A model generated the notes under the pieces. It made no database searches. It had not been told where the DNA came from and saw only the letters and a list, made by a program, of their open reading frames with translations. A DNA stretch of 64,000 bases from NCBI RefSeq assembly GCF_914271545.1, contig NZ_CAJZAH010000002.1:434001-498000 (forward strand), in the 5' to 3' direction. The DNA is from Cupriavidus respiraculi (GTDB lineage: Bacteria; Pseudomonadota; Gammaproteobacteria; Burkholderiales; Burkholderiaceae). The position numbers and the translations under genes are program-made. This document shows, piece after piece, positions 2,875 to 20,688 of the stretch (positions are counted from its first letter, which is position 1; each line of letters starts with the position of its first letter).

Positions 2875-2877
2875 CAG

Positions 2878-3303: not shown

Positions 3304-3316
3304 GTGCGGAAACGCG

Positions 3317-3892
3317 TCACTGCACCGGGCCATGGCCAGTCCACCTCAATGCCGAGCCCTCCGCATTCAAGGCATCGTATGCTCTTTCGCACGCCTGTCC
3401 GGCAATGCGGGCGGAATCGGCGTACTCAGCCAGGATTCCCGCTCGACGGTCAGCGCGGCCGAGCACGTCGGCAAGCATGCCGACGGGATCGGCGGTTGAC
3501 GCGCCAGCTGTGGCAGGGGAGGAATGGCCGGCGCTGTGACCGGCGGCGACCAGCTGGGCAACTCGCTGGCGCAGCCGGTCAGCAGCAGCATGAGCGTCGC
3601 GAGCAGCCGTTCTGGCCGACTCGGCATCCTTTGTGGCCGCATGGGCAATCTCCGTCTGAGCCGCGAAGCGGCGTTGTTCTTCCAGGCGGACCTTGTCGAT
3701 CGCGAGTGCCATCGCATAGGCCTGCTCGCCGCGCTCGGCCGCTTGCTGGGCCTCAAGCCGTTTGATCTCACTGTTTGCGCGCCAGCCGTTAGTAACCCAC
3801 CCCGCGGCGAAACAGCCCACTGCGATGGCCAGTGCTGCAGCGGCCCGCCAGGGTATTTCACCCGCTCCGCGGGATAGGGCGGTTCTGATCAT
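3317..3892 (-). CDS. Inner-membrane spanin (Rz-like, DUF2514 type)
   Basis: A 191-residue i-spanin that fuses the inner and outer membranes in the last step of lysis. One N-terminal transmembrane segment (about residues 17-36) is followed by a long Ala/Glu/Arg-rich coiled coil (40-115) in the periplasm. The ATG follows GGGGAG. A second reading frame inside the gene encodes its outer-membrane partner (3367-3627), the classical Rz/Rz1 arrangement. It is the last gene of the tailocin late operon. Homologues with embedded partners lie at 21306 and 29336. Confidence 0.85.
   Translation of the reverse strand: MIRTALSRGAGEIPWRAAAALAIAVGCFAAGWVTNGWRANSEIKRLEAQQAAERGEQAYAMALAIDKVRLEEQRRFAAQTEIAHAATKDAESARTAARDAHAAADRLRQRVAQLVAAGHSAGHSSPATAGASTADPVGMLADVLGRADRRAGILAEYADSARIAGQACERAYDALNAEGSALRWTGHGPVQ
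3367..3627 (-). CDS. Embedded outer-membrane spanin (Rz1-like lipoprotein)
   Basis: This frame lies wholly within the Rz gene. About 86 residues, with a hydrophobic stretch, lipobox LLTGC and a proline-rich mature domain (PSWSPPVTAPAIPPLP), which are the hallmarks of an o-spanin. The first ATG giving a basic start is at 3627; its ribosome site is poor, so the precise start is uncertain. The frame is conserved in the two sister cassettes (21323-21598, 29353-29628), which supports it as a real gene. Confidence 0.8.
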   Translation of the reverse strand: MPSRPERLLATLMLLLTGCASELPSWSPPVTAPAIPPLPQLARQPPIPSACLPTCSAALTVERESWLSTPIPPALPDRRAKEHTMP

Positions 3893-3946
3893 CTGTGCTC
3901 CCCACTGACGAGGCGCAGTCGCGGACCGGGCCGCCGGAAGGCGCCG

Positions 3947-4279
3947 TCACGGAACAGGTCCATCCAGCCGCTCCTTGAGATACCGCACTTCGGCGGTAAG
4001 CTCGGCGATCGTGCGCTTCAGGTCACCGATTTCACGAAGCAGATCGTTCCGCTCCTTGTAAGCGACATCCGCGCGCTGCTCGGCCGAGTCGGCCCGTGCC
4101 GAAGCCTTGTCCAATTGCTCGGACAGACGTTGGATGATGTCGATCTCCGCCTTGCTTTGCGCGACTTCGACCCTGTCGTTGCGCCACACCTGCCGGATCA
4201 ACCAGGCAGCGCCGCCGACCGCGGCCATGATGGCTCCGATGGCACCGCTCGCTCCTCCTGGCATCCCCCAATCGTTCAT
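3947..4279 (-). CDS. Lysis-cassette membrane protein, holin candidate
   Basis: A 110-residue protein with one Gly/Ala-rich transmembrane helix (about residues 10-28) and a long C-terminal coiled coil (38-105, with heptads ending EVRYLKERLDG). It sits between endolysin and spanin, where a holin is expected, and no other holin is visible in the cassette. The one-helix topology and long coiled coil are atypical for known holins, so the call rests on context. GGAGG precedes the ATG. Orthologues are at 22476 and 30505. Confidence 0.6.
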   Translation of the reverse strand: MNDWGMPGGASGAIGAIMAAVGGAAWLIRQVWRNDRVEVAQSKAEIDIIQRLSEQLDKASARADSAEQRADVAYKERNDLLREIGDLKRTIAELTAEVRYLKERLDGPVP

Positions 4280-4303
4280 ATCGCCTCCGCGTGCCGATCC
4301 GCG

Positions 4304-4810
4304 CTACGGCCCGATGTCGGTACCGCCGAACGCAACGTACTTCTCAAGAAGGACCTCGAGCGTGTGTTCGCGCTGACCGTAGCCCGCGCCTGGAAGGCTG
4401 GCCCATTCGTGCCGGCACTTCGCCACGGCAATTCGGAATCGTCCCTGAACGAGATCGGGCAAGGCCCCACGGCGGACCACAAGATACGCCGCCACCTTGT
4501 CCTGGGACAGTGGCGAAAAATCTGTCACACCGCATGCGCGGCTCGCCCAATCCCAGGTGTCGGTGAGAATCTTTCCGGGAATCGCGGCCATGATCTGGTA
4601 TCGGCCGGCAGCGTTGCTAAGGCCCCATTTCGTCACAACCGCACGACCTGGATGTTGCGTGTAGCCATGGAACAGCGCCCCCCCAACATTTACGTTGTAT
4701 CCGTCATCGCTGCCACGTACAGTAGACGTGCCTTCACTGAAAGCTATTGTGTCTAAAAATGCCGCCATGCTTTTGCCGCCCGGAAGGCTTTCTGGTTTGG
4801 TAAAGGGCAT
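4304..4810 (-). CDS. Endolysin, lambda R-like lytic transglycosylase
   Basis: A 168-residue peptidoglycan-cleaving enzyme of the lambda R type. The catalytic Glu is E26 in FSEGT, followed by GRYQIMA and the C-terminal GAGYGQ motif, in the same order as in lambda R (158 residues). There is no signal peptide, so export depends on the holin. The sequence differs clearly from the endolysin of the right-hand prophage (30868) but is close to the broken copy at 22830. Confidence 0.9.
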   Translation of the reverse strand: MPFTKPESLPGGKSMAAFLDTIAFSEGTSTVRGSDDGYNVNVGGALFHGYTQHPGRAVVTKWGLSNAAGRYQIMAAIPGKILTDTWDWASRACGVTDFSPLSQDKVAAYLVVRRGALPDLVQGRFRIAVAKCRHEWASLPGAGYGQREHTLEVLLEKYVAFGGTDIGP

Positions 4811-4966
4811 TGGAAATCCTGCGGTTCAAATCTCATGGAAACGCAATAAGGCTTCCAACCTAAAAAAGGGAGGACCGCGATTGGAGCCCTGAATAGCCTT
4901 CGCCATCCGTCCTCCGTAGCTCCACCCGCCCCGCAACGGCGCACGGCAGATCGCGGCTCTCTCTTC

Positions 4967-5386
4967 CTACGCGAAAACAGTCGGAAAAGTCGATTGATCC
5001 GGAAACCCCGGTTGCAACGGCAAATCGCGAAGCGCCTGTCGATACGAAAGCAGTGCGGCAAACGATTCAGGCGTAAGAGTCGTCGTGCCACTATTGGCGA
5101 GTTGATCGCGGTGTCGCAACACGAGCCAGTCCGTCCGACTCAAAAGACGATTCCTACGCTCTCTGACTTCGTTGCTCAGTTCCGCAGTGACTGCCTCACT
5201 CGTCGGAGGTGCCGGCGGAACCAGCCTTAGATCTGCGACGCGATACTGTTGAGAGGCGATGCAGGTAAGCCATTCGTCATAAGTAATAGCGATGACGTTA
5301 GCACCTGCCGGTGGAGGACTGTCCTCGGAATCATAAAAGGCAGTGATTGAGCCAGTCTCGTCATATCCCGCAAATTTCATCCCCAT
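4967..5386 (-). CDS. Tail fibre assembly chaperone
   Basis: A 139-residue protein immediately downstream of the fibre gene. The N-terminus (MGMKFAGYDETGSITAFYDS) and the C-terminal half, with Leu/Arg helices and an ending QPGFPDQSTFP resembling the WP-type terminus of Caudo_TAP proteins, fit a fibre-folding chaperone. The start ATG at 5386 nearly overlaps the fibre stop codon (TGATATG). The 156 bases between this gene and the endolysin hold nothing I can name. Confidence 0.75.
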   Translation of the reverse strand: MGMKFAGYDETGSITAFYDSEDSPPPAGANVIAITYDEWLTCIASQQYRVADLRLVPPAPPTSEAVTAELSNEVRERRNRLLSRTDWLVLRHRDQLANSGTTTLTPESFAALLSYRQALRDLPLQPGFPDQSTFPTVFA

Positions 5387-5387
5387 A

Positions 5388-6287
5388 TCAATGCCCCAAT
5401 GCCCATACATTGATCTGGGCTGCAATGCGCGCGCCATTGCCAGGGGCGTATGCCGCCACGCCAATAGCAGACGGACCGAACGCACCGAGCGACGCTATCG
5501 CCGCGTTGCTGCCGTTGAAATTGTGATACGTCGCCACTGCATTGCGCATTGCGTTGGGGAATCGCACCGGAAACGTGAAGCTAACATCCGCCACTGCCGA
5601 CGTGGTGATGCTTCCCCACTGCACGATCCACCCACCTGGGAGCTTCTGGTAGCCGTTGTTTCCGAGCACGGCATCGAACTGACCAAGAGATACCGCCTGA
5701 TGGGTGCGCGTGGCCGGTGGCACCTGGGCCGCGCCACCCGTGGAAACAGTAAGCACCCAGGCCTCCTGATCGGCGCGCCAGACTGCCTGACAGCGGCCGC
5801 CAGCCACAATCTCGCCGCCTTGCAGCGCAGCGTGGGGACCCACGAGCGGCTTCGGCCCCAAACCGTTTACATTAAGAGTCGAGACCCCCGTGTTCCCAGT
5901 ACGTGCCTTGAACCACAGGACCATCCCGTCCTTCAACAATGCGACTGCCGGACTGTAATCGACGACATATGCGTTAGCAGTGCCTGAATCGCTCGCGGCA
6001 ACGGGTGCTGCAGATTGAATCATGCTGGCGATGCCACTGGTCAGGCCATCAGTCGTATCCGAAGCCAGCGCAAGATTTTCCGTTCCTGCAAGGTTGCGGA
6101 TCTGCGCGAACAACCACGCCGCCTTCTGATCGTTCAACTGCTGCACGCGGTTGAACTGCTCCACCGATGGCGGCGTGGATCCGATGAAGGCCCAACCCTG
6201 CCTGTACTGGTTCTCGTCGATGGTCTCGATACCACCGTTCTGCGCCCACTGCGTCTCGAAGTTGTCGAAGAAATTCACGTCAGCCAT
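5388..6287 (-). CDS. Tail fibre, receptor binding
   Basis: A 299-residue short tail fibre and the likely determinant of target range. The N-terminal 60 residues should attach to the baseplate (followed by a DQKAAWLFAQIRN helix). The C-terminal third carries the NGYQKLPGGWIVQWG motif and a Gly/Ala-rich end, which resemble the gp53-like tip domain of proteobacterial phage fibres. The ATG at 6287 shares one base with the upstream stop; the codon before it is TTG. It is short for a fibre and might act as a trimer. Confidence 0.85.
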   Translation of the reverse strand: MADVNFFDNFETQWAQNGGIETIDENQYRQGWAFIGSTPPSVEQFNRVQQLNDQKAAWLFAQIRNLAGTENLALASDTTDGLTSGIASMIQSAAPVAASDSGTANAYVVDYSPAVALLKDGMVLWFKARTGNTGVSTLNVNGLGPKPLVGPHAALQGGEIVAGGRCQAVWRADQEAWVLTVSTGGAAQVPPATRTHQAVSLGQFDAVLGNNGYQKLPGGWIVQWGSITTSAVADVSFTFPVRFPNAMRNAVATYHNFNGSNAAIASLGAFGPSAIGVAAYAPGNGARIAAQINVWALGH

Positions 6288-6949
6288 CAAATTCCCCTTG
6301 TCATTACACCTGCACCAAATCCGTAGAATCCCTGCCCGGAAAAGCCAAAAGGCGTCTCGGACGAGCCCGTGATGATCTTCACGCCCACGCCAGCCGCCTT
6401 CGGTACCCAGCGGTACGGGTTGTTCATCAGCACGTCAGTCGGCCCCGGAATCTTGCTCACCCAAATGCGGATCCGTGCGTTGCCCGCATCCTCGACAATC
6501 ACGCGGCTCACATCGAAGATCGGCTTCAGCGCCGCCGCGATCTCGGGTGCCGTGCCATGGCCGTTGTTGAGCGCGATCTTCCAGTAGAGCAACTTGCGGT
6601 ATTCCGGATCCTGCAATGTCGTGGACCCCACCAGCGGCTTCTCGTATGCGCGCCGGATGCGTGCCTGCCCGAAACCGTTGATGGCGGGCTGACCGACGAA
6701 GCCAAAGAAGGCCGTGAAAATCGCCTCGTCGATGACTCGGGGGAGCCCCACGATCTCTCCGATCCCGTCCAGTTGCCGGCCCTCGGCGGCGTCGAGCCAT
6801 CGCCTGTCGAAAAGGTCCCTGAGCGCTCCCTGGATGCCCTGCGCCGGCTTCAGCAGGGCGCGAACCAACGCCTCGAGTTTTGGTTTGCCTTCGAACTGGC
6901 TGAGCCAGCGACCCCATCCTGTACCCGGATGATCCTGTTCCAGATCCAT
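6287..6949 (-). CDS. Baseplate protein, DUF2612
   Basis: A 220-residue DUF2612 protein, the wedge-to-fibre connector in several contractile tails, occupying the slot of P2 gpI or Mu gp48. The motif EYRKLLYWKIALNNGHGT (about residues 113-130) is typical. The ATG at 6949 overlaps the stop of the J gene (TGATG), and GAGGTG lies just upstream, so translation is coupled. Confidence 0.85.
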   Translation of the reverse strand: MDLEQDHPGTGWGRWLSQFEGKPKLEALVRALLKPAQGIQGALRDLFDRRWLDAAEGRQLDGIGEIVGLPRVIDEAIFTAFFGFVGQPAINGFGQARIRRAYEKPLVGSTTLQDPEYRKLLYWKIALNNGHGTAPEIAAALKPIFDVSRVIVEDAGNARIRIWVSKIPGPTDVLMNNPYRWVPKAAGVGVKIITGSSETPFGFSGQGFYGFGAGVMTRGI

Positions 6950-8400
6950 CACGACACCTCGATGCGGGAGAGATCGAACTTGGCCACCTCGAAGTCCTGG
7001 ATCGGGATGTTGGCCGCGGAAAAATCCGCCGGCTGCGGTTCGAACGCCGGGTCGGCGGAATGGGCGAACGTCAGATCCACATGGGCGATACCGGGCGTCG
7101 CGTAGATTGCGCTGTAGAAGCGCTGTTGCACCACGTCCTGCCCGATGCCCAGTGCCGTGCCGGCGGCTGCGATACCTTCGGCGACCTGGCGGAATCCGTC
7201 CGGCGGAAAGGGCTGCTCGCTTGCCGGCAGCAGCGTGAGGCGCGCACGCACCGATACGTACACCGGTATCGGACGGTCGAACCGCACGACGTGGCGGTCG
7301 CCGTCGTCGCTCAGCACCTCCACCGCAATGGCGCCGTGCGTGTCGATGCCTGCGGCCTTGACACGGTAGATCGCACCGCCGATTTCATCATCCAGCCCAC
7401 CATCCACCACCACGTGAATGCTGTGAGGCGGTCGACCCATGGCGTCGGTCGTATCCGTGTCGTTCTGGAAATCCTTGATGGCCGAAATGCCGGCGACGCG
7501 GTCGCGCACATTCGGGCCGATGCTTGGCTTCGTCGCCGCTCCCAGGCGGAATAGTCCTGTGGGGTAACGAGCGCGCAAGGCCGCATCGTTCTCCGTGAGC
7601 CGGCCCAGCGAGGCGGCCTGCAGATTCGTCACCGACTCCCACCCCGTCACCGTCGACACGATGCCGTCGAGATCGCCGACCGCGGCTGCTTCCGCCATGG
7701 GATTCGCCGTCTGGGCGAGCACGGGAGAACCCACCCGGGACAACGATAGCGGGCCGCCGAGCCCCACCGCGAACGCCACCCTGCCGTCCGAAGTGACCCG
7801 CAGCGAGGCACCATCGCTGGCGACTTTCAAGCCCGACTGGCTGACCGCGCCCACCAGGCCCGAGAGAACTTCCGCAATGGTCGGTGCCGCGTCCGAGGCG
7901 AACGTGTAGTCGGCGCCGTCGATGGCCACGCGATAGGTCTGGTTGGCGATGACCTCCGGAACGATGACTACGTCCGCGGCTGCCGCCGGGGTGATGGTGA
8001 CGTCCGCCGTCGTGATCCAGTTCGACTGCGTCGTGCGATGCCGGATCTGTGAGCCGGCCGGCACCATTGTGGAGGCCGTGCCGTAGCAGACGACATAGCA
8101 GCGCGACGGCTCGGCGGCCAGGCGAGTCACACCCGTGAACGACACCGCATTGTCGAGGGACGTACCCGAGGCGGACCCGGGATACATCGCCAGATACACG
8201 GCTTCCGCGAGCTCCCACAGGGCGGCTTCGCGCTCGGCGAACGTATCGATGAGCAAGCCGGTGATCGAGTTCGGACGGGTTTCCACCTCGCCGGCATAGC
8301 CGGCGTTGCGCAGCCGGTCGTTGAGGTCCTGCACCACTTCCTGCCGCAGTTCCGGCAGTCGAGGACGAACGAATCCCTCCGGGGTTACACCGTAGGCCAT
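6949..8400 (-). CDS. Baseplate J-like wedge protein
   Basis: A 483-residue baseplate J family protein (Mu gp47, P2 gpJ). N-terminal features are GVTPEGFVRPRLPEL, then NSITGLLIDTFAEREAALWELAE and YPGSASGTSLDNA, the usual order for the family; the C-terminal half is beta-rich. It forms the hexagonal rim of the baseplate that triggers contraction. The ribosome site AAGGAA lies ahead of the ATG. Confidence 0.92.
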   Translation of the reverse strand: MAYGVTPEGFVRPRLPELRQEVVQDLNDRLRNAGYAGEVETRPNSITGLLIDTFAEREAALWELAEAVYLAMYPGSASGTSLDNAVSFTGVTRLAAEPSRCYVVCYGTASTMVPAGSQIRHRTTQSNWITTADVTITPAAAADVVIVPEVIANQTYRVAIDGADYTFASDAAPTIAEVLSGLVGAVSQSGLKVASDGASLRVTSDGRVAFAVGLGGPLSLSRVGSPVLAQTANPMAEAAAVGDLDGIVSTVTGWESVTNLQAASLGRLTENDAALRARYPTGLFRLGAATKPSIGPNVRDRVAGISAIKDFQNDTDTTDAMGRPPHSIHVVVDGGLDDEIGGAIYRVKAAGIDTHGAIAVEVLSDDGDRHVVRFDRPIPVYVSVRARLTLLPASEQPFPPDGFRQVAEGIAAAGTALGIGQDVVQQRFYSAIYATPGIAHVDLTFAHSADPAFEPQPADFSAANIPIQDFEVAKFDLSRIEVS

Positions 8401-8421
8401 ATTGCGATTCCTTTTTGTTGG

Positions 8422-8781
8422 CTAGAGAAGGTACCGTCGGGCTATCAGCCCCTCGTCGGTATCGGCCTCGAAAGCGAGCGCCAGCGCGCGGCCCTGGTGG
8501 TCGATCAGCAGCTCGAGCCGGCGCACGAACTTCACCCCGGCCACCGCGGTGATGCGCGCTCGAAAGATCGCTTCGATTCCGGCGCGATCCGGCGACTTGA
8601 CGAGAACGCGTTCGAGGTAGGGAACGCCCACAGTGACATCGAGGAACCACTCCCCCAGAACCGTTTGCAGCGAAACCTTGATCTGTTGGGCAATGCGCTC
8701 CGCGCCTTCCAGGAGCGATGCGTCGCCAGCGCGGGAGAGATCGAGATCATGGTCCGCCGCCAGTGCGAGGTCGAATGTCAT
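8422..8781 (-). CDS. Baseplate wedge protein, gp25/GPW-like
   Basis: A 119-residue small wedge protein in the gp25/DUF2634 group. Features are DLSRAGDASLLEGAERIAQQI early, LGEWFLD at about residue 45 and an internal GVKFVRRLELLID strand. It should help link the sheath to the wedge. The ATG overlaps the spike-gene stop (ATGA), so it is translationally coupled. Confidence 0.82.
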   Translation of the reverse strand: MTFDLALAADHDLDLSRAGDASLLEGAERIAQQIKVSLQTVLGEWFLDVTVGVPYLERVLVKSPDRAGIEAIFRARITAVAGVKFVRRLELLIDHQGRALALAFEADTDEGLIARRYLL

Positions 8782-9467
8782 GCGTGGGGCTCCGAGGTTT
8801 GTCCGCCCATGCTGTCGGTGTGGCGATGGCCATCTTCCACCACGCTGTCCGAGCGAATGGTTCCTCCGGCGTGGTGGACGTCGCCACGGATCGTCGTGCC
8901 GGCGGCGCCTGCTTCGCCGCTCAGACCTTGCGCATAGGTGAGCAGTCCCTCCACGCGAACCGTCTGCCGGAATACCGACTTCATGTCGACCGTGAACACA
9001 CCCGGGCCGGCAAGCGTGGCATCGCCCGAGGGCGACAGCTTCAGTGCGCAACTTCCGTACTCCACGCTGACATTGTCGATGTCCGCCCTTGCCGTTCCCG
9101 GGCGCAGCACGGGGGTCGCAAACGCGTCCGACAAGTCGAACTGGCGAGGGTCGTCCGGCGCGCCGTCAGACCCGGACAACCAGCTTTCCAGCGCCCTTTC
9201 CGAGAAAGACAGCTTGACGGGATCGCCCGCCTTCAGCGGCACGGTGATCAGAGCCAACGATCCCCGCACATCGCCCGCCGGCCAGCACACCGGCACCTGG
9301 ACGATCTGTGGGGGCGCGAGGAACTGGCCGCTTGCCAGTTGCTTCGGCAGCGCGGGGCGCACCACCGCGCTGCTGCCGTCGTAGGAGACGATGACGCCTG
9401 GCAGCGTGGTATGGATGTCCGCCAGTTCCGTGGCGATGAGTCTGCGCAGTTCGGTGATATTCATCAT
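8778..9467 (-). CDS. Membrane-piercing spike, Gp138-type
   Basis: A 229-residue central spike. The N-terminal OB-like domain (residues 1-110) resembles Gp138_N and is followed by a repetitive beta-helix. The C-terminal DGHRHTDS carries the HxH motif typical of spike tips that hold an iron ion. It should puncture the target outer membrane when the sheath contracts. AGGAG precedes the double ATG at 9467. Confidence 0.88.
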   Translation of the reverse strand: MMNITELRRLIATELADIHTTLPGVIVSYDGSSAVVRPALPKQLASGQFLAPPQIVQVPVCWPAGDVRGSLALITVPLKAGDPVKLSFSERALESWLSGSDGAPDDPRQFDLSDAFATPVLRPGTARADIDNVSVEYGSCALKLSPSGDATLAGPGVFTVDMKSVFRQTVRVEGLLTYAQGLSGEAGAAGTTIRGDVHHAGGTIRSDSVVEDGHRHTDSMGGQTSEPHA

Positions 9468-10375
9468 CGATTGCTCCTGGGGGAGGCATTGACGTCGATC
9501 AGCTGGAGCTCGGTCTGCCACTGCCCATCTTCGGTATCGCCGGTATGGCGCAGGCTTTCGACACGGTAGAAGCCGTCTGCCAGCCGGCTGCGGAGCCTGA
9601 TCAGGTCGCCCGGATTGACTTGCGGCACAAGCAGCGATTGCACACGCCAGCCATCGCGCTGCTGCCCGGCACTGGCCATCTCGCGATTGGCTTTGGCCTT
9701 CTGGTCGTTCGCCTTGTCCTTCTCGCTCGCAGCAGCGCGGCTTCGTTCGGGATATCCCACAAGACCGGACTCGGCCGCGAGCTCCACGGCTCGGCGCCGG
9801 GTCGTGCCGCGCTTCGGTACGATCTGCAGCGTCTGGTTCTGGATCGACCATTCCAGGCCAGTCCCTTGCACGACCTTGTGCAGGGCCTGGCGCGCGGGCC
9901 CGTAGAACGAAAATCCGTTCCGCCATATGCGGTCCGGTACGTCATGCGCCATGATCAGGGGCAGTCCCATCTGCTTCGCCAGATCGCGGATGATGGCGGC
10001 AGCCGAAACACCCGCCCCATAGCCGAGCGTCACCGCGGTATCGCGGATCTCGACGTAGCCATCGTGGACCTCGAGTTCCGTTACCACGTCGCTGCCTTCG
10101 AAGCGGGTGTGGGCACCGGTGATCGATCCCGCCGCCAGCAGCATGGGACCGCCTTCCTCGGCATATCCGGCATAGAGCAGGCAGCGAAGATCCGGCTGTT
10201 CGATGCGGCTGCGTGTAGCCGGGGCAAGGTTGTAGAGGCTGATCTTGTGGCCATTGGGTTGTTCCCCGGCATCCTTCGCAATCTCGAACTGGATGCGAAT
10301 AGGTAGTGCGATCTCTACCCCTTGCCGGCCCGCCTGTCCGATCTGCAATCGATAGACTCTATTGAAGCGTGCCAC
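9464..10375 (-). CDS. Baseplate hub protein
   Basis: A 303-residue hub protein carrying the spike (equivalent of T4 gp27 or Mu gp44). Beta-rich first half with MLLAAGSITGAHTRFEG and EVHDGYVEIRD; the C-terminal part has NPGDLIRLRSRLADGFYRVE, a common hub ending. The start is a GTG at 10375, chosen because AGGAG sits seven bases upstream and the gene then overlaps its predecessor by 17 bases. An Arg/Ala/Lys-rich linker (about residues 200-235) is unusual. Confidence 0.82.
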   Translation of the reverse strand: MARFNRVYRLQIGQAGRQGVEIALPIRIQFEIAKDAGEQPNGHKISLYNLAPATRSRIEQPDLRCLLYAGYAEEGGPMLLAAGSITGAHTRFEGSDVVTELEVHDGYVEIRDTAVTLGYGAGVSAAAIIRDLAKQMGLPLIMAHDVPDRIWRNGFSFYGPARQALHKVVQGTGLEWSIQNQTLQIVPKRGTTRRRAVELAAESGLVGYPERSRAAASEKDKANDQKAKANREMASAGQQRDGWRVQSLLVPQVNPGDLIRLRSRLADGFYRVESLRHTGDTEDGQWQTELQLIDVNASPRSNR

Positions 10376-13214: not shown

Positions 13215-13702
13215 GAGTTCCGCTTCGAAGTCGCGCCGGAATCGGCCGACAGCGTCTCCGCGAGGCCTTGGACCGAGCCAAAACGGCCGGCCCAGCGCAG
13301 AAAAAAATCCGCGAAGTTCAAGCGGATGATCTGAAACATCAGCTCGAGGATGTCCCCGGCGTCGGAGAATGCGAGCGCACGCATCTCCTTGGTAAGCCTG
13401 GACTCGCGGCCATTGATCGAGACCGCGACGAACTCCGGATCCAGCAGCCGGTTCGCCCAGGCTTCCAGCGATGCGCCGTCGAGTTTGGCCGACAGTTCTC
13501 GAATCGCCTCCGCGACAGTGGCATCCTGCCCGGCATTGCCCCCGGTACCCGCGCCGCCGCCGAACGCACCCTCCAGCAGATGCCCTACCGCCGGAAGAAT
13601 GTCCCGCTGCAGATCGCCAAAAATCCGCAGCGCGAGGAAGGGATCCATCTTGCGAATCATGAATTCGGCGTCGCCGATCGTGACGTTGGTCGCCCGGCTC
13701 AT
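13211..13702 (-). CDS. Tail assembly chaperone
   Basis: A 163-residue protein between tube and tape measure, the place of lambda gpG. The N-terminal part (INATNVTIGDAEFMIRKMDPF-like) and the helical remainder match tail assembly chaperones of myophages with DUF3383 sheaths. It should coat the tape measure before tube polymerisation. The start at 13702 replaces a longer frame from 13753 that lacks a ribosome site. Confidence 0.75.
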   Translation of the reverse strand: MSRATNVTIGDAEFMIRKMDPFLALRIFGDLQRDILPAVGHLLEGAFGGGAGTGGNAGQDATVAEAIRELSAKLDGASLEAWANRLLDPEFVAVSINGRESRLTKEMRALAFSDAGDILELMFQIIRLNFADFFLRWAGRFGSVQGLAETLSADSGATSKRNS

Positions 13703-14130
13703 GCGGCATTCCCCCCGACGAAGAACGCGCTGTTGCCGGTTTCGATGGTCCACTCCCGGCTACCTACCTCGGCGCCGAACTCGGCGGTCGGATACTTCAC
13801 CACCCAGGCCTCGGACGAAGTGAACACCGTGCGACCACGCAGATCCGCCACGGCGATCGGGAACAGGTTTCCGCCGCCACTGAGGCGGTCCGCTTGCAGC
13901 AGGGCCGAGAGCACATCGTTGCCGGCGCTGGTCTGCTGGAGCGTGATCTTGACGCGGCAACGGCGGTCGGACGACATGGCCCGCGCGACCTCGCCATCAG
14001 CGCCGACCACGGAGGTAACGCCGTCGCCGACCTCCTCGATACTGATAAAGGTGTCCGCGGCGAAGCCGCTCAGCGTCGCTGCACCGACGGTGACGTTGAC
14101 ACGCGACGGGTCATAGGTACGAGTTGTCAT
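13699..14130 (-). CDS. Tail tube protein (DUF3277-like)
   Basis: A 143-residue tube subunit with the family features TYDPSRVNVTVGAATLSGFA at the start, DRRCRVKITLQQTSAGNDVLSALL in the middle and EWTIETG near the end. It forms the inner tube driven through the target envelope. It lies directly after the sheath gene. Confidence 0.88.
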   Translation of the reverse strand: MTTRTYDPSRVNVTVGAATLSGFAADTFISIEEVGDGVTSVVGADGEVARAMSSDRRCRVKITLQQTSAGNDVLSALLQADRLSGGGNLFPIAVADLRGRTVFTSSEAWVVKYPTAEFGAEVGSREWTIETGNSAFFVGGNAA

Positions 14131-14141
14131 GGAAGCTCCTG

Positions 14142-15497
14142 TCAGAGGGCGTAGGTCAGATTGCCGCGGATCGTCACGGCATGGATGGCGCCAGCCAGGC
14201 GCGCGGTGAACGACACGTCGTTCAGTACGCGATTGGCCTTGTCGTTGAAAGGCACGTTGGCGGCCAGAGGGGCGCTGATGGTGTAGGAGGGAATCTTGCG
14301 TCCGTCTTCGCCCAACTCCTCCGGCGCGATGCCTCCGCGCGAAACGCCGAGGTCCAGCGCCTTGCGCATGGCCGTGGTGATGATCTGGATGCCGCCGTCC
14401 GTGTATGGCACCTTGCCGTTGGCATTGACGAGGGCGGACATGACGTTGATCTTCACCTGCTCTGCGAGCCAGTCGCGAAAACGGATCACGTCGATCCACT
14501 CGCCTGCGGCAACCTTGCCGCCTTGCGTGATCGCGAAATTCCGGAACGGCTCGAAGGTGTTGGCGTTCTTGTTGCGCGCGGCGATCGACTGCCCCTCGCC
14601 GAGGTTGTCGAACGAGATGCCGGCGAGGCGCAGATTGGCCCAGGTCTCGCCGCCGGGGTAAAAGGTAAAGCGGTTGCCGGCAACCGCTGACTCCAGCCAT
14701 TCCGTGGCCGCGGCTGCGTGGTACCAGACCGCCGTACGGAAGAACTGCTTCTGCTGCAGCTTGGATGCCAGATCGGTTTCGGAGCCGCTATCGATGATTG
14801 CTGCCTGGCTCGACGACACCCCCATCAGCTTGGCATTCGACTCGACCCATTCCGCAGCCGCAAGGATGTCGGCTTCGGCCCGGCTGGCCAGAACAACCCC
14901 ATACCAGTCGTCGTTCTCCGCGCGGCAGGCCGCGAGTGCCTCGACGATGGACTCGGTCGCCACCATTGGCTGCAACGCGAGGTTGCCCTTGAGGGCGACG
15001 GCGATCGCAGTACCTTGCACGTCGGCCGAGACGGTGAGGGTCGCTCCCACCGCCGTGGCGGTGGCGGGGGCGGCCGTCGCATTCAGCGCGGTTGCCAGTC
15101 CCTGCGCGATCGCGGTGACACTGTCCGCGGCCGTCGCGGCGTATGTCGCCGTGGCGCTCTGCGTCTTCCCGGCCGCGTCCTTCCACTGCAGCGTGATGTC
15201 ATATGCGGATTCGGACGCCACGCTCACCGCCACATCGAAACTGTCGGCGGCTTGCCGACCGATGAAGCATCGGGAGATGGTCGGGATCTGCTTGAACACG
15301 TCGCGCACCGCCATGTACAGCGGCGATGCGCTCGACAGGCCCAGTTCGAGCAGCTCGTCGGCCGTCGTCACGGCCATTACGCGGCCCAGACCGAGCGCAT
15401 GCGGGCCGACGATGAGCAAGTCGGAGAAGGACTGTTCCTTGATTGCGGTTGTGTTCAGGCTGATCTGAACGTTGACGATACGGTCGAGTGTTGCCAT
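14142..15497 (-). CDS. Contractile tail sheath (DUF3383)
   Basis: A 451-residue sheath. The N-terminus MATLDRIVNVQISLNTTAIKEQ and ADIFKQIP-type positions (RDVFKQIPTISRCFIGRQA) fit DUF3383; the C-terminus RLAGAIHAVTIRGNLTYAL is typical. A contractile sheath shows that this is a myovirus-type (R-type) apparatus rather than a flexible F-type. GGGGAG precedes the ATG. A bidirectional terminator-like hairpin lies just upstream (15515-15546). Confidence 0.9.
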   Translation of the reverse strand: MATLDRIVNVQISLNTTAIKEQSFSDLLIVGPHALGLGRVMAVTTADELLELGLSSASPLYMAVRDVFKQIPTISRCFIGRQAADSFDVAVSVASESAYDITLQWKDAAGKTQSATATYAATAADSVTAIAQGLATALNATAAPATATAVGATLTVSADVQGTAIAVALKGNLALQPMVATESIVEALAACRAENDDWYGVVLASRAEADILAAAEWVESNAKLMGVSSSQAAIIDSGSETDLASKLQQKQFFRTAVWYHAAAATEWLESAVAGNRFTFYPGGETWANLRLAGISFDNLGEGQSIAARNKNANTFEPFRNFAITQGGKVAAGEWIDVIRFRDWLAEQVKINVMSALVNANGKVPYTDGGIQIITTAMRKALDLGVSRGGIAPEELGEDGRKIPSYTISAPLAANVPFNDKANRVLNDVSFTARLAGAIHAVTIRGNLTYAL

Positions 15498-15514
15498 GCA
15501 AGGCTCCCCAAAGA

Positions 15515-15546
15515 AAAAAGCCGCCCGGGGGCGGCTTTGGTTTTTT
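15515..15546 (-). terminator. Terminator-like hairpin ahead of sheath gene
   Basis: A GC stem AAAGCCGCC/GGCGGCTTT with T tracts on both sides, between the tail-terminator and sheath genes on the minus strand. Being inside the tail operon, it would have to be read through or would lower expression upstream of the most abundant product. Confidence 0.65.
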
Positions 15547-15578
15547 CCATTCCACGATGCCGTGGACATGGTCCAGCG

Positions 15579-16055
15579 TCAGGGGCGTTCCCCCTCCGCT
15601 GTAGTTCCATCGGCGTTCACCGTCTCGATCAGGCCAACGTCCTCCTCGAGCATGACGGTGTAGCGAACGCCGACTTCAATCCGCGTGCGCGGTTCGAAGG
15701 TACCGTCATCGAGCAGCAGCGGTACCTGCTCCGCCTTCCCCACGGCGAAGACAGCCAGGTCCAGCGCATCGGCGCGCACCAGCGCCCTCTCCATCTGGAG
15801 GCGTTGGGTCAGCGTGTCCATGGCCTCCATGCCGTCGGCGCCCAGGTACGTCAGCTGAATCAGCGCATCGCGGTGACTGCTGGCGGCGCGCACCCCATTC
15901 GGCGCGACGGGCCCGAGATGCGGCGGTAAGCGGGTGGACTCCTGCAGCTTCAGCGCGATATAGGGCTTTGGCGGCGCTGCGTCCCGTTCGGCGAATATCA
16001 CGGGCACTGCGGCCTCGTTCGCGATCAATTCGTAGATGGCCTGCTCGGGTGTCAT
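15579..16055 (-). CDS. Tail terminator / neck protein
   Basis: A 158-residue protein at the head-proximal end of the tail operon. The N-terminus MTPEQAIYELIANEAAVPVIFAERDAAPPKPYIALKLQ and YLGADGMEAMDTLTQRLQ fit the phage neck terminator family that caps the tube and sheath. In a complete phage, head-completion and capsid genes would come next; here there are none. Confidence 0.8.
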   Translation of the reverse strand: MTPEQAIYELIANEAAVPVIFAERDAAPPKPYIALKLQESTRLPPHLGPVAPNGVRAASSHRDALIQLTYLGADGMEAMDTLTQRLQMERALVRADALDLAVFAVGKAEQVPLLLDDGTFEPRTRIEVGVRYTVMLEEDVGLIETVNADGTTAEGERP

Positions 16056-16392
16056 GGTTCGGTCTTCGGTATAGCAAGGCATCGCACGGGACTGGTTCGG
16101 GCACAGTCCCCGCGTGCGTCGCAGGCGCGCCGCCACGCAGACAAGAAGCGCGGGCGCAAAAAAAGCCCGCACGACGACATCGTGCGAGCTTGTGTGAGCA
16201 TCAACGGTAATGTGGGTACGTCGCGTCCAACCACCTCCCACCATTTCTTCGGGGCGCTGCGGAAGCGCACGCGGCGCAAACTGCTCGCGCCAGAAATGCA
16301 AAAGCCCCCAGCGGGCTGGGGGCTTCAGATACATTGACTGCGAGTCTGGAAGAAATATACAAGGCTTGTCGCAAAAGCGCAAGCACTTTTCG
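16056..16392. promoter_or_regulatory. Late-operon leader with two terminator hairpins
   Basis: About 340 bases with no convincing gene. On the minus strand two terminators follow the HTH gene: a 10-bp stem AGCCCCCAGC/GCTGGGGGCT followed by TTTT (16303-16326), and GCTCGCACGA/TCGTGCGGGC followed by seven Ts (16158-16189). Stacked terminators ahead of late genes are typical of phages that use an antiterminator. Confidence 0.7.
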
Positions 16393-17127
16393 TTAGGCGT
16401 GGACCGCCTTCGGCAACTCGTAGTCCGTCGACTCCGCGACGAGGCCATGGGCGATAAACATGGGCTCCAGACGCGACAGCGCGAGATTCTCCAGCGCGCG
16501 GAAATTCGCATCCATCCATTTGGCGGCCCGGAAGATCTTGTCCTTGCTGACCTCGTACTTCTCGCCGAGGGCCCGCACCGTCAAACCCTCGCGCTGCTCC
16601 CTTGGCAGATAGTGACGAGCGGCAAGCTCCAGCAGCAGCGCACCGGACGTCAACCCCGAAGAGCGCCTGGCGTACAGCGCGAGGCGCTTGCAACCTTCCA
16701 GCTTCTCCGGACCGACGGCGAAGCGCGCCTGCACAGCCGCCATTTCCTGGCTGGGCAACCGGTCGCGCGCGGCAGCTGTCACCATGCTGCACTGGGCCCT
16801 CACCTCGTTCGGCGCAAGACCGTCGAAGTTGACGGTACCGCTGCCGCCGTTCTCGCGCAATCGCTGCAGCCACGCCAATTGCTGCCCCGTCGGCCGCTCG
16901 AGATCCTCGAGCAGGCGAACGAGCATGTTTCGGAACGGTTGTCCGTGCCGCGGGGGCATGGACAGGATCAGATAAGACACGCGTAGCGCTTGCTCGGTGC
17001 TTGTAAAGATGGCTTCAGTCATTGCTTGGTTTCCCGGTTGAGCTCTCATGGCTGTCCGTAATGTCTGCGCTTGCCGTTGGGCAGCGCCTGTCTTCTGATC
17101 GTGCGGCACGATCCTTCTCTTCGTCAT
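16393..17127 (-). CDS. HTH protein, candidate late-gene regulator
   Basis: A 244-residue protein not assignable to a named family. The C-terminal segment LTVRALGEKYEVSKDKIFRAAKWMD (about residues 185-209) reads as a helix-turn-helix. It lies between dnaB and the terminator-rich leader of the tail operon, the place of Q-type antiterminators. The first ATG abuts the dnaB stop; an internal ATG at 17022 is an alternative start. Its job in late-gene activation is inferred from position only. Confidence 0.65.
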   Translation of the reverse strand: MTKRRIVPHDQKTGAAQRQAQTLRTAMRAQPGNQAMTEAIFTSTEQALRVSYLILSMPPRHGQPFRNMLVRLLEDLERPTGQQLAWLQRLRENGGSGTVNFDGLAPNEVRAQCSMVTAAARDRLPSQEMAAVQARFAVGPEKLEGCKRLALYARRSSGLTSGALLLELAARHYLPREQREGLTVRALGEKYEVSKDKIFRAAKWMDANFRALENLALSRLEPMFIAHGLVAESTDYELPKAVHA

Positions 17128-18522
17128 TCACAGGTCGGCAACGATGTCGCGCCTGCGCGGTGCGAACCGCGCGCCGGCCTGTGGCAGCGGACCACTCCAC
17201 TCTTCGAATGTCGTCACCGCGCCTCGATACCGCAGCGGCACGTCACCGAGCGCGCCGTTGCGCTGCTTGCGGATCATCACTTCTGCATAGCCCTTCAACG
17301 CCATGTCCGCGGGCTGGTACATCTCCGGGCGATGCACGAGCAGCACCACATCGGCGTCCTGCTCGATGTCGCCGGAGTCGCGCAGATCCGCCAGTTGCGG
17401 CCGTTTGTCGGGCCGTTCTTCGCTCTTGCGGCTCAACTGCGACAGCACGATGACGGCAGCGCCCAACTCCTTGGCCAACGCCTTCAGGCCCCGCGAATAC
17501 GCGCCGATCTGTTGCGTGCGCTGCTTCTCCTCCCCGCCCGTCATCAGCCCGAGGTGGTCGACGATCAGCACGTCCAGGCCATGTCTGCGCTGGAAAGCCT
17601 TGGCCTTCATCCGGATATCGAGCAGCGTCAGCGACGGTGTGTCGTCCACCGCGAATCGGAGTCCCTCGATGGCGGCAAACGCGGACCGCATGCCCGTCAG
17701 CGCTTTCTCATCGTTGGCGTCCATGCGACCGAGCAAGGTGGACAGCGGCACCTCGCCGCGGCTCGCCACAGCGCGCGATACGATTTCCTGATCGGCCATT
17801 TCCATCGACAACAGCAACACGCTGTGGTCCGCAGCGAGGTTCAGGCCGATATTCGTCGTCAGTGCCGTCTTGCCCATCGACGGCCGCCCGGCAACGACGA
17901 CCAGATTGCCGCGGCGCAGCCCTCCATTCAGCGCCTTGTCCAGGGGCGGCAGGCCCGTTCTCAACGGCGCTTCCCCCATGCCCGCGATACGATCGTCCAC
18001 ACTTCGTGCGAATGCCGGCAGCAAATCCCGCAGCATGCTGGGTTCCCTGCGTCCACCCGCCTCGGCCAGTTGAGACAACGTGGTCTGCGCATGGTCGAGC
18101 ATCTCCGCACCCGTCATCGCGCTCGGCGACAGGACCGACTGTTGTAGGTTTTGCGCGGCGGCGAGTATTTCGCGCAACAGCGCGCGGTCTCGCACGGTTT
18201 GCGCATAGCGGGCAATGTTGGCGGTGCCCGGCGTGCTTTGCGCCAATTCGGTCAGGTACACGAGATCAGCGACGTCGGTCGTGCGGCCGCGTTCCCGCAG
18301 CCTCTCGAACACCGTCACGACGTCGGCGGACTTCCCCTCTGCGACGAGCCCGAGAATGCAGGCATGGATCTGCCGGTGATCCTGTCGATAGAAATGTTGC
18401 GGCTCAAGGCCAGCGGTGCGGTCGATGGCATCGTTGTCCAGCAGCAGGCCGCCCAATACAGCTTGCTCGGACTCCACGCCCCACAGAGCCCTCCCGAAGC
18501 CAGCGTGATCGATCTGCTTCAT
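17128..18522 (-). CDS. dnaB: Replicative DNA helicase DnaB-like
   Basis: A 464-residue phage DnaB. The N-terminal domain (1-110, starting AVLGGLLLDNDAIDR) is followed by a RecA-like ATPase with Walker A GRPSMGKT (212-219), Walker B LDVLIVDHL and the QLSRKSEERPDKRP loop. The length matches the family. The start overlaps the DUF1376 stop as ATGA. Keeping an intact helicase in a headless element is odd, because a tailocin does not need DNA replication. Confidence 0.92.
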   Translation of the reverse strand: MKQIDHAGFGRALWGVESEQAVLGGLLLDNDAIDRTAGLEPQHFYRQDHRQIHACILGLVAEGKSADVVTVFERLRERGRTTDVADLVYLTELAQSTPGTANIARYAQTVRDRALLREILAAAQNLQQSVLSPSAMTGAEMLDHAQTTLSQLAEAGGRREPSMLRDLLPAFARSVDDRIAGMGEAPLRTGLPPLDKALNGGLRRGNLVVVAGRPSMGKTALTTNIGLNLAADHSVLLLSMEMADQEIVSRAVASRGEVPLSTLLGRMDANDEKALTGMRSAFAAIEGLRFAVDDTPSLTLLDIRMKAKAFQRRHGLDVLIVDHLGLMTGGEEKQRTQQIGAYSRGLKALAKELGAAVIVLSQLSRKSEERPDKRPQLADLRDSGDIEQDADVVLLVHRPEMYQPADMALKGYAEVMIRKQRNGALGDVPLRYRGAVTTFEEWSGPLPQAGARFAPRRRDIVADL

Positions 18523-19343
18523 GCACTCTCCTGACCGTGGTAGCGGCCCTCCCGGATCTTCGCGAAATTCTCCGCCTTGACGATCCAGTCCAGGCTCGCA
18601 ACGAAGGGCTTTCTGCCATCGGCAGCGCCGGTGCGGCCAGTCAGGAAATCCGACTCTGCGACATAACCGAACAGACGTCGCCAGTAGTCCAGATGCTGGC
18701 GCTTCGTGTCCTCGCTCCACCGGGCCCGGAGAGCCTGCGCACGCGCCGGCGTCCATTCGCGGATCCCGGGGCACATCGGCAACAGCTGGTGATACAGCGC
18801 GATGATCGCCTGATGCGGGCACGCTGGTCCGGCCTTCCGTACCGCCACACGGCAAACCATCCGGTCTCTGTCGGCGTCGCCGCCGGCGACCACCACGCCA
18901 GTGGTGGTTACGGTTTCTTCTGGATCATGGCTAGTGGCTGATGGCTGATGGCTAGGGTTTTCTTCGCTTTGCGATTCCTTACCGAAAGGAAACCCGATGG
19001 GTTCGCTTTCGCTTTCGCTTTCCCGGCGCTTGGGCCTGCCTCCCCGCTTGCCGTTGGCTCGATTCGCCTCGATTTGCGCGCTGGCCAGTTCGATTTCCCG
19101 CTCGCATCGCGCTTGTCTCCACGTTTCGCCCTCCAGCTGAAAGAACTCGGACAGAACCGCCTCCACAGCCTTGAGTTCCTCCTCCGCGCGCGCACCGATG
19201 AGGCGGGCCGCCTGACTCGCCGGTATGCCGCCTTCGCGCGTGTAGTAGACATCCATCAGCCGCGCATACACGCCGTGTTCGAGCAGCGAAAGATGGGCTG
19301 CGTCCTTGATGTAGTCGCCGATATGGCGTTTGTAAAAGTTCAT
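18519..19343 (-). CDS. DUF1376 (YdaU-like) replication protein
   Basis: A 274-residue protein with the DUF1376 N-terminal domain (MNFYKRHIGDYIKDAAHLSLLEHGVYARLMDVYY), a phage module usually next to a helicase or helicase loader. The linker (about 105-150) is Ser/Glu-rich and partly encoded by tandem heptamer-like repeats (GGCTGAT units near 18926-18955), which suggests slippage-prone variation. It is the first gene of the leftward operon under repressor control. Confidence 0.85.
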   Translation of the reverse strand: MNFYKRHIGDYIKDAAHLSLLEHGVYARLMDVYYTREGGIPASQAARLIGARAEEELKAVEAVLSEFFQLEGETWRQARCEREIELASAQIEANRANGKRGGRPKRRESESESEPIGFPFGKESQSEENPSHQPSATSHDPEETVTTTGVVVAGGDADRDRMVCRVAVRKAGPACPHQAIIALYHQLLPMCPGIREWTPARAQALRARWSEDTKRQHLDYWRRLFGYVAESDFLTGRTGAADGRKPFVASLDWIVKAENFAKIREGRYHGQESA

Positions 19344-19522
19344 GGACAGTTGCGAGCCACGGAATCCCCGTCCAGCCCGCCCTTCTTTGTTTCATCGCCC
19401 GTTGCATCTCGGCTGGCACCGGCGGCCAGCCTTGTTTGTGCCCCGTGTCGCTTCTGGTCCATCGTCTCGTTCAATCTCCACTCCGTTCTCGCGGAGCCAC
19501 GGCTCCGGTCCGGCTCATTCTA

Positions 19523-19598
19523 TTACCCACTAGGTAACATATCAACGGAAATTTGTTACCATTATGGTCTCTTTACCTTTTTGGTCCGGACAGGTCCA
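19523..19598. promoter_or_regulatory. Operator/promoter region of tailocin repressor
   Basis: Between the divergent DUF1376 and repressor genes lie repeated half-sites: TTACC-N5-GGTAA (19523-19537) and GGTAACA-N14-TGTTACC (19533-19560). These are likely repressor operators. I see no cro-like gene in the 255-base gap, unlike the right-hand prophage. Confidence 0.65.
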
Positions 19599-20516
19599 AT
19601 GGCGCCCATGAAATCGATCAAGGAAATCCGCCGGGAGAAGCTGGCGGTCGCGATACGGGAGAAGTGCGAGGGCAACCAGTCGAGGGCCGCGGAAGCGCTG
19701 TGCTATTCCACGCCGTCCCTCGTGAATCGCTATCTCAGCGGGGCGAAGGACATCGGCGACCGAACGGCGCGGAAGATTGAAGAAACGTTTGGCTACCCAA
19801 CCTACTGGATGGACTCGGGTGCCGCCCCGATGGTGGCAGACGACCAAGCGGCAGCAGTCGCCGCTCGCGTAGCGCATCTCTTCCAGACGACGGGTGCGAG
19901 TCCCGCGGCGATCGCGCAGTTGGTGCGACTACCGGTGAGCGACATCGAAGAGTGGCTACAGGGCTCCCGTAAGCCGACGCTGGACCAGGCCATCGCCATC
20001 CAGGAGCGGCACCGGATCAATGCTGTCTGGCTCGTGACAGGCAAGGGAGAGCCATCGCCCAGCATCGCGCATAACGATGACTGGAACCCCATCCGCATAT
20101 CCCAGGACGCGTACAAGAAGATCGCGGTCGTCGCCATGGCACAACTCGGGGACAACGGCAATTTCTGCGACCTCGAGTATCCGGTCGGTCATGGCGACGG
20201 CTATTTGCACTTCATCAGCACCGACCCCGATGCCTACGGCCTGCGTTGCGCCGGCCAATCGATGGAGCCTCGTATCAAGGATGGCGAGTTTGTGGTCGTC
20301 GCGCCTAACCATCCCGTCACTAACGGAGACGAAGTCCTCGTGAAGGCGAAGGACGGGCGCGTCATGGTGAAGGTGCTCGGTTACGCCAGAGATGGTTATA
20401 CGACCCTGCTGTCGGTGAACCAGACGCACAAGCCTATCCGGATCGTTTCCGCGGAGATCGAAAGGATGTCGTTCATCGAGGCCATCGTGAAGCCGTCCGC
20501 ATGGAGACCGGACTGA
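19599..20516 (+). CDS. LexA-like (S24) repressor of tailocin
   Basis: A 305-residue two-part repressor. An N-terminal DNA-binding region (residues 1-145) has two helix-turn-helix-like segments (NQSRAAEALCYSTPSLVNRYL and AIAQLVRLPVSDIEEWLQG), followed by an S24 domain. Catalytic Ser221 (in AGQSMEP) and Lys258 (in RVMVK) are 37 residues apart, as in LexA. No obvious Ala-Gly cleavage site is seen at the usual distance. The S24 half is almost the same as in the repressor at 56502. The ATG at 19599 follows ACAGG; another lies 9 bases on. Confidence 0.88.
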   Translation: MAPMKSIKEIRREKLAVAIREKCEGNQSRAAEALCYSTPSLVNRYLSGAKDIGDRTARKIEETFGYPTYWMDSGAAPMVADDQAAAVAARVAHLFQTTGASPAAIAQLVRLPVSDIEEWLQGSRKPTLDQAIAIQERHRINAVWLVTGKGEPSPSIAHNDDWNPIRISQDAYKKIAVVAMAQLGDNGNFCDLEYPVGHGDGYLHFISTDPDAYGLRCAGQSMEPRIKDGEFVVVAPNHPVTNGDEVLVKAKDGRVMVKVLGYARDGYTTLLSVNQTHKPIRIVSAEIERMSFIEAIVKPSAWRPD

Positions 20517-20673: not shown

Positions 20674-20688
20674 CTCGAAGCCTCTCCG

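Follow-up and report, generated by a model that had tools for sequence, protein, structure and literature searches.

A headless contractile tail locus of Cupriavidus respiraculi, with an AlpA-like antiterminator and retained replication genes, is probably a conserved R-type tailocin

We analyzed a 64,000-nucleotide stretch of the Cupriavidus respiraculi genome (G000:C2:434001-498000, within a 5.6-Mb genome; hereafter, the window, whose coordinates are used unless otherwise stated), which contains at 3317-20516 a block of contractile-tail, lysis, and control genes in which no head or packaging gene was found. From its gene content and from related loci, we consider it highly probable that this block is a conserved R-type (contractile) tailocin descended from a temperate phage with a DUF3383 sheath. 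Because the headless layout recurs twice elsewhere and the genes are under selection, the locus is very likely a weapon against rival bacteria rather than a dying virus. Across the three loci, one of which is partial, the ratio of nonsynonymous to synonymous substitution rates (dN/dS) places the headless state under purifying selection. The parts were named by Pfam, PHROG, and NCBIfam profile scans of the open reading frames (ORFs) of the window. Each part is an open frame, and the start codons of some frames are uncertain (Table 1).

A Contractile Tail Without Head or Packaging Genes

On the minus strand, 3317-19343 carries in transcription order the DUF1376 gene, the DnaB gene, a gene that the initial annotation of this DNA called the helix-turn-helix (HTH) gene, and then the tail terminator through to the spanin. 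The order after the tail terminator is sheath, tube, assembly chaperones, tape measure, Dit, hub, spike, baseplate, fibre, fibre chaperone, and lysis genes. The contractile-tail set (sheath, tube, tape measure, baseplate, and fibre) is complete, and the block has lysis genes and a repressor gene of its own. The profile scans and the ORF list agree with the initial annotation that the tail and baseplate set, endolysin, spanin, and S24 repressor are all present and open. A profile search with the sheath matched six solved phage proteins, some of them named sheath, and none of the six bears pyocin, diffocin, or Mu as a name. A P2-like or Mu-like tailocin lineage was rejected: the sheath is without Phage_sheath_1 domains, and DUF3383 is the only match at E ≤ 0.001.

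Between the tail terminator and the repressor there are only the HTH gene, DnaB, and DUF1376, and the claim that portal, capsid, protease, and terminase are missing there was confirmed by the following searches. When 18 head and early proteins of a full-length sibling prophage in the same genome were compared with the window (tblastn, E ≤ 1e-3), only early-gene homologues were matched, namely the HTH gene and DnaB, with h12134 matching in the phage to the right; portal, capsid, MuF, DUF2213 protease, terminase, and neck protein gave no match in the window. PHROG scans of the two non-coding gaps gave matches in 0 of 10 frames (all six of 16056-16392 and four of the six of 19344-19598), and no integrase or terminase family was matched among the 20 block proteins scanned with Pfam.

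Head and packaging genes in or beside the block would have counted against the initial annotation; none was found in the block, and the ones on its right are part of a different prophage bounded by attachment (att) sites. This prophage runs from 26165 to about 69100 and has a Mu-like contractile tail and a Phage_capsid, portal, and large terminase (TerL) of its own. It is integrated at the 3′ end of tRNA-Pro(GGG) at 69053-69129, with an att repeat at 26165-26230 and 69039-69107, and its integrase lies at 67250-68347. An integrase search of the genome found this integrase and missed that of the sibling prophage, which hmmscan finds, and is therefore not a complete census. The initial annotation had used the right-hand phage as a guide to the missing parts, which does not hold, and the phage is ruled out as parent of the block: its Mu-like tail is unrelated. 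The sibling prophage and an IMG/VR contig, G787, are therefore better comparators.

The sibling prophage lies at about 631-678 kb of G000:C2, and its tail is syntenic with that of the block, with a sheath 75% identical. Its head module comprises Major_capside, DUF2213 (the PHROG head maturation protease), Mu F-like, Phage_portal_3, large and small terminase, neck, and further head proteins, and it also has homologues of the HTH gene, DnaB, and the repressor, together with an integrase. The terminase, portal, and capsid genes of the sibling occupy exactly the slot that is missing from the block, and the same applies to G787. In that contig, which has in common with the block the rest of the tail, the HTH gene homologue (66%; the AlpA-like gene below), and the late leader, 9210 bp separate this gene from the tail terminator and contain small terminase (TerS), TerL, portal, MuF, DUF2213 protease, capsid, neck, and further head genes.

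Portal and capsid were also found in all of the other relatives from genomes (L005, which is the same organism as G038, L006, L007, and G041), so that the head module is present in 5/5 genome relatives, the sibling included. A sheath scan of IMG/VR yielded 15 loci, of which 10 have portal and capsid, two are headless, two are distant with weak head matches only, and one is a distant fragment with none; some of these loci duplicate genome loci (e.g., L029 and the amp6 locus). Homologues of the sibling large terminase were matched only in L026/G787 and, weakly, in L033 (27%), and the other relatives may have a different terminase or one outside the examined stretch. The AlpA-like protein and the repressor were each found in 1 of 399 genomes of the order (E ≤ 1e-8 and E ≤ 1e-60, respectively). 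A close sheath occurs in 3 of 398 family genomes (E ≤ 1e-40), one of which has the headless form, and a search of genome contigs for more headless copies returned three loci, all with portal and capsid.

Three Headless Loci in One Clade

The same headless layout is found in two IMG/VR contigs. IMGVR_UViG_3300048858_000147 (G400) holds the entire block, from spanin to repressor, and 3300048856_000028 (G399), whose first bases fall within the tape measure gene, holds the remainder of the block as far as the repressor. Most of their proteins are 65-96% identical to those of the window, and the AlpA-like gene lies directly upstream of the tail terminator in all three (337 bp in the window, 324 bp in G400, and 365 bp in G399). 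The initial annotation had set a deletion confined to this strain against its own reading. Full-length relatives do exist, yet the headless state is common to three loci of one clade, and G400 and G399 rule out a recent strain-specific deletion. Two of the three loci are metagenome contigs, so that the conservation spans loci rather than one host species.

A tree of the tail terminator, sheath, tube, and TAC15 (927 columns, 13 rows) placed the headless trio in one clade with support of 100/100, and six other tail proteins (1304 columns, 11 rows) grouped the window with G400 at 100/100. Support for the headless clade was 100/99 with the AlpA-like gene, 100/99 with DnaB, and 96/96 with DUF1376. 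The simplest reading of these trees would be one loss of the head module.

Both contigs continue rightwards into other prophage DNA, and each has a copy of the att sequence of the right-hand prophage on the right of its headless block, so that the tailocin is outside the att-bounded prophage in all three loci. In G399, a terminase homologue (31699-33369) lies beyond the att copy (9216-9272). Further headless copies were sought with the leader pattern in IMG/VR viral contigs, where the matches were these two contigs only, and among 64 DUF1376 loci of IMG/VR, where DUF3383 tail genes were matched in the same two only, within the examined flanks. In a search for a common empty site, merR was present in 60/60 genomes of the genus and the left-flank gene in 41/60, never adjacent in the match lists. 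An array lies between them in G000, and elsewhere they are on different contigs or more than 200 kb apart; no empty site could be read because the two genes are not side by side.

Selection in the Headless State

We calculated dN/dS by the Nei-Gojobori method among the three headless loci. The values were 0.063-0.080 for the sheath, 0.036-0.054 for the tube, 0.051-0.070 for the repressor, 0.078-0.101 for the AlpA-like gene, 0.103-0.150 for DnaB, 0.117-0.183 for DUF1376, 0.103 for Baseplate J (window and G400 only), and 0.18-0.24 for the tape measure. The ratio was below 0.25 in most genes, the exceptions being the tail terminator, the spanin, and the hub (0.25, for a row that includes an upstream extension); dS was mostly 0.2-1.2, with 0.2-1.1 for the genes just listed and the tail terminator, 1.2 for the endolysin, and 1.85 for the fibre. 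The initial annotation had argued for selection from the intact frames; this is weak alone, and dN/dS among the headless relatives now carries the argument. The only stop in the aligned headless rows of the block is in the hub row. Hub rows have stops in most relatives because the query includes the upstream extension, and the G400 hub ORF is open over 323 amino acids. The G399 spanin row, which matched at another place in the contig, was left unused because this contig ends before the lysis genes.

Measured against the sheath, the tail terminator evolves faster in the headless loci: the ratio of its dN to that of the sheath was 2.88, 4.04, and 6.43 in the headless pairs versus a median of 1.73 in full-length pairs (45 non-independent pairs, range 1.11-2.90, with the sole pair above 2.88, L007-L031, nearly identical). 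The difference suggests that constraint has relaxed on a component that formerly contacted the head. The fibre chaperone and the fibre, which is the probable target-recognition part, are among the parts most divergent from G400: the chaperone is 32% identical and too diverged for dS, and the fibre is 65% identical over 203 codons, as is the spanin (65%). Such divergence of fibre and chaperone would be expected under target switching.

An AlpA-Like Antiterminator and Its Late Leader

The HTH gene of the initial annotation is present, and its identity is corrected by profile and fold. With a profile of six homologues, Pseudomonas aeruginosa AlpA (E 5.7e-11) was the sole PDB match at E ≤ 0.1. An AlphaFold model (mean predicted local distance difference test score 73.8; 90 of 244 residues at ≥90) matched only the AlpA loading and loaded complexes in the PDB at E ≤ 0.001 by Foldseek (E 6.5e-6 and 1.3e-5), and its template modeling score against 7xya_G was 0.77 by target length and 0.51 by query length. 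No Pfam family was over the cut-off for this protein, even when asked to E ≤ 10. As judged from these comparisons, the product is an AlpA/Q-like antiterminator. AlpA acts once its repressor has cleaved itself: it loads between the −35 and −10 elements and, as a processive antiterminator, allows polymerase past a terminator into lysis genes (PMC9371919, PMC7969949). A broken second antiterminator-like gene with one in-frame stop lies to the right of the repressor at G400:22982-23365 and is probably a remnant of another prophage.

Right after the AlpA-like gene, at the deletion junction, the leader carries a promoter-like site, TTGCGC-17-TATATT (16382-16354), and terminator hairpins at 16325-16302 and 16191-16163, for which folding energies were computed. 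The leader has a putative promoter, recognized by pattern and conservation only, and an intrinsic terminator before the target operon. A 49-base stretch of the leader, with the promoter-like site inside and beside it, has one variable column among the three headless loci. The leader of G787 has TTGCCT-17-TAGATT, then CAGACTCGCAG and a terminator, ahead of the packaging genes; the terminator stem differs in sequence with its pairing kept. The sibling also has a promoter-like site and a terminator after the AlpA-like gene. Since G787 keeps the same leader before its packaging genes, the late leader was retained at its original position and today leads into tail genes.

In the divergent control region, a palindrome (GGTAACA..TGTTACC, 19533-19560) is conserved in 3/3 headless loci and is overlapped by a promoter-like site at 19545-19517 on the minus strand, the only site flagged by a consensus scan. 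The initial annotation had named a damage-type repressor, which is supported in part: the S24 domain was found, and a canonical cleavage site was not recognized by eye.

Retained Replication Genes

The DUF1376 protein matched the PHROG families phrog_9327 (primosomal, E 6.1e-34) and phrog_5810 (replication initiation, E 1.6e-29). A review describes tailocins as free of replication genes (PMC12090994), and here both DnaB and DUF1376 are present. Rhizoviticin, an F-type tailocin of Allorhizobium vitis, also kept a DnaB-like helicase, together with a LexA-like repressor. Its helicase gene and four other early genes are required for activity and late-gene expression, by a mechanism that the authors left open (PMC10811719). 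Because rhizoviticin is likewise an exception, the lack of replication genes describes most tailocins and does not define them. The two loci are alike as headless tail loci that retain a DnaB-like helicase; rhizoviticin differs in its flexible F-type tail, its alphaproteobacterial host, and a possibly early evolutionary stage, in the view of its authors (PMC10811719). Unlike in rhizoviticin, the DnaB and DUF1376 pair is conserved here across three diverged loci, and purifying selection across these loci indicates that the pair is not a mere leftover of recent domestication.

Among the 64 DUF1376 loci, 13 have both DnaB and an HTH-gene homologue. The spacing between the starts of these two genes is 1386 and 1398 bases in the two headless loci versus 2802-4053 in the other 11/11, and a RuvC-like resolvase homologue (phrog_159) lies between them in 8 of these 11. 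The block lacks the genes that ordinary phages carry in this interval, and the DUF1376-DnaB pair is kept. No iterons or other visible replication origin were recognized in the DUF1376 gene. Import of DnaB from a phage donor is unsupported: the nearest DnaBs found are those of the two headless loci, and the others are at most 64% identical. The pair probably supports induction, through amplification of the locus or coupling of late expression to replication. A tailocin in which, upon induction, DUF1376-DnaB would replicate the locus in situ and so increase gene dosage or open the late promoter is a tentative idea that we regard as rather unlikely; if it were true, a domesticated weapon would have kept phage DNA replication as an amplifier.

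Proposed Induction and Competing Explanations

In a working model, DNA damage would inactivate the S24 repressor, and the divergent DUF1376-DnaB-AlpA-like operon would then be expressed. The AlpA-like protein would load onto RNA polymerase at the promoter that immediately follows the AlpA-like gene, and the antiterminated polymerase would pass two terminators into the tail and lysis operon. Tails would assemble, with the 598-amino-acid tape measure setting their length and the tail terminator capping the end, and the endolysin and spanins would burst the cell and release headless tails. The released particles would bind relatives via the fibre, contract, and pierce the envelope.

Several observations weigh against a tailocin acting in this way. 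The headless loci number only three (two of them metagenome contigs, and one partial), and support for their clade is weak with the repressor (65/36). Purifying selection would be the same for a tailocin that kills bacteria and for a tail put to some other use, and dN/dS is higher in the tail terminator (0.21-0.45) and the spanin (0.44, window versus G400). The leader is recognizable in 2/6 full-length relatives (G787 and the sibling) and not in G038, G041, G788, or G790. The consensus scan found one promoter-like site versus a shuffle mean of 3.9 and did not flag the late promoter, whose −35 element matches in 3/6 positions, and the spacer of this promoter is largely conserved in four loci, yet has no match to the published AlpA motif. 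Terminator-like sites over 1400-21000 numbered 18, versus a shuffle mean of 13.2 (standard deviation 4.1).

A degraded, functionless prophage that lost its head genes by chance is largely refuted and very unlikely. A full-length sibling resides in the same genome, the locus lies beside other prophage material and duplicated lysis cassettes, and a close sheath is found in only 3 of 60 genomes of the genus, the other two belonging to phage with portal and capsid (at E ≤ 0.001 nine of the 60 have a sheath match, six of them at 25-29% identity). Decay is, however, at odds with a headless state common to three loci at the dS and dN/dS given above, with the conservation of the late leader and operator region, and with the open G400 hub ORF. 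The initial annotation, which proposed a probable tailocin rather than random loss, is thus supported, and neither of the two results that it had set against itself appeared.

We also regard as very improbable a helper-dependent relative whose tails would join the heads of the sibling or the right-hand prophage and still move DNA. The homology of the sibling tail, the presence of open head genes in the sibling, and the retained replication genes would suit such an element. Against it, no integrase or terminase family was matched among the 20 block proteins scanned, the neck and head proteins that adjoin the tail terminator in relatives were not found here, the tail terminator, as the would-be head contact, evolves faster in the headless clade, and the right-hand phage already possesses a Mu-like tail. 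A contractile injection system with cargo or a non-killing role, resembling extracellular contractile injection systems (eCISs), has the contractile tail core in common with the block and is scarcely credible, for the lysis cassette and fibre chaperone are present as in tailocins, and among the 20 proteins scanned with Pfam ATPase matches fall only in DnaB and toxin families in none, whereas eCIS clusters carry an AAA+ ATPase.

Feature Inventory and Neighboring Genes

The features of the block are listed in Table 1. The frame nested in the Rz gene contains LLTGC, which we take to resemble a lipobox, and is therefore a candidate Rz1.

Table 1. Features of the headless tail block, in window coordinates.
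Feature	Position	Strand	Evidence
Inner-membrane spanin, Rz-like, DUF2514	3317..3892	-	Pfam PF10721 E 1.3e-25
Candidate outer spanin (Rz1), overlapping frame nested in Rz gene	3367..3861	-	ORF list
Small membrane protein of lysis cassette, PHROG "hol-like"	3947..4279	-	phrog_2658 E 8.5e-18
Endolysin	4304..4810	-	phrog_90 E 2.4e-38
Tail-fibre assembly chaperone	4967..5485	-	PF16778 E 1.8e-13; phrog_188
Tail fibre, Gp53-like_C	5388..6287	-	PF21882 E 6.6e-13
Baseplate protein DUF2612	6287..6952	-	PF11041 E 2.3e-27
Baseplate J-like wedge protein	6949..8400	-	PF04865 E 9.1e-8
Baseplate wedge subunit	8422..8781	-	phrog_120 E 5.9e-19
Spike, xxxxx_N domain (start chosen by eye)	8778..9467	-	PF18352 E 3.8e-22 on longer ORF 8778-9926
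Baseplate hub (true start probably downstream of 10546)	9464..10546	-	NF047561 E 2.8e-56
Small structural protein	10359..10694	-	phrog_349 E 1e-19
Dit-like tail protein	10694..11095	-	PF21821 E 3.7e-13
Tape measure protein, TMP_3, 598 amino acids	11266..13062	-	PF20155 E 1.8e-40
Tail assembly chaperone TAC15	13211..13753	-	PF21822 E 1.3e-16
Tail tube KPP10_Orf10	13699..14121	-	PF11681 E 1.1e-7
Contractile sheath DUF3383	14142..15569	-	PF11863 E 4.8e-25
Tail terminator	15579..16055	-	PF23961 E 1e-12; NF047498
Late leader at deletion junction	16056..16392	-	Promoter-like site and terminator hairpins
AlpA/Q-like antiterminator ("HTH gene")	16393..17127	-	Profile to AlpA 7xya_G E 5.7e-11
DnaB-type replicative helicase	17128..18498	-	PF03796 E 1.6e-77; PF00772
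DUF1376 protein, replication-initiation/primosomal type	18519..19343	-	PF07120 E 1.1e-27
Divergent control region	19344..19598		Between DUF1376 gene and repressor
Repressor, HTH and S24 peptidase	19599..20516	+	PF00717 E 7.9e-16; PF01381

Two more spanin/endolysin cassettes, related to the tailocin cassette, lie at 21306-23321 and 29345-31419, the former nearer in DNA (about 92%) to the cassette of the sibling prophage. LexA-box-like sites at 2448, 20656, and 26366 (CTGTACATCCATACAG twice and CTGTATATTCATACAG) precede small phage genes on the flanks of the tailocin and of the right-hand prophage, and similar sites occur in G399, G400, and the sibling. The window has four LexA-box matches versus 0.59 expected (2 shuffles reached 4), and the fourth, at 1207, is apparently a chance match. 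The interval that separates the tailocin from the att site includes a gene (23333-25657) for a 774-amino-acid protein that looks membrane-like by eye and matched no NCBIfam or Pfam family and no ORF of G399 or G400; a possible role is surface modification, which could give protection against phages or the tailocin. The right-hand prophage encodes an ATP-dependent DNA ligase domain at its left end (27938-28555), and the left end of the sibling has related DNA (82%).

Comparison With Known Systems and Implications

No paper on this locus was noticed in the literature searched. BceTMilo of Burkholderia cenocepacia is a headless contractile tail, explained by its authors as a temperate myophage whose head genes were deleted, with a CI-like repressor and reportedly RecA-dependent induction (PMC5411513). 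It resembles the block in its headless contractile tail and repressor and differs in being P2/KL3-like with Ogr late control, whereas the block has a DUF3383 sheath, an AlpA-like antiterminator, and replication genes (PMC5411513). Enterocoliticin of Yersinia is a contractile tailocin that has a CI repressor and whose tail genes are preceded by genes bearing the annotation antitermination protein Q (PMC13030884); its likeness to the block is by annotation only, and antitermination in a tailocin is therefore not new in itself. In the AlpR-AlpA-alpBCDE system of P. aeruginosa, a homologous antiterminator is followed by an intrinsic terminator and then lysis genes, under the self-cleaving repressor AlpR; this system controls lysis genes (and PA0807-PA0829) rather than a tail operon, and its binding motif GGGACG was not seen by eye in the conserved spacer here (PMC9371919, PMC7969949). 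The Pseudomonas phages POR1 and MiCath have a homologous DUF3383-type sheath (46-48%).

If our interpretation is correct, the locus would represent a new tailocin lineage from the DUF3383-sheath phages, a group that the tailocin literature examined, as far as its text was available, does not name as a source. It would also show how a tailocin can arise, with the head module gone from between a kept late leader and the tail genes and the switch left in place. The puzzle raised by rhizoviticin, namely why some tailocins keep a replicative helicase, would become testable here.

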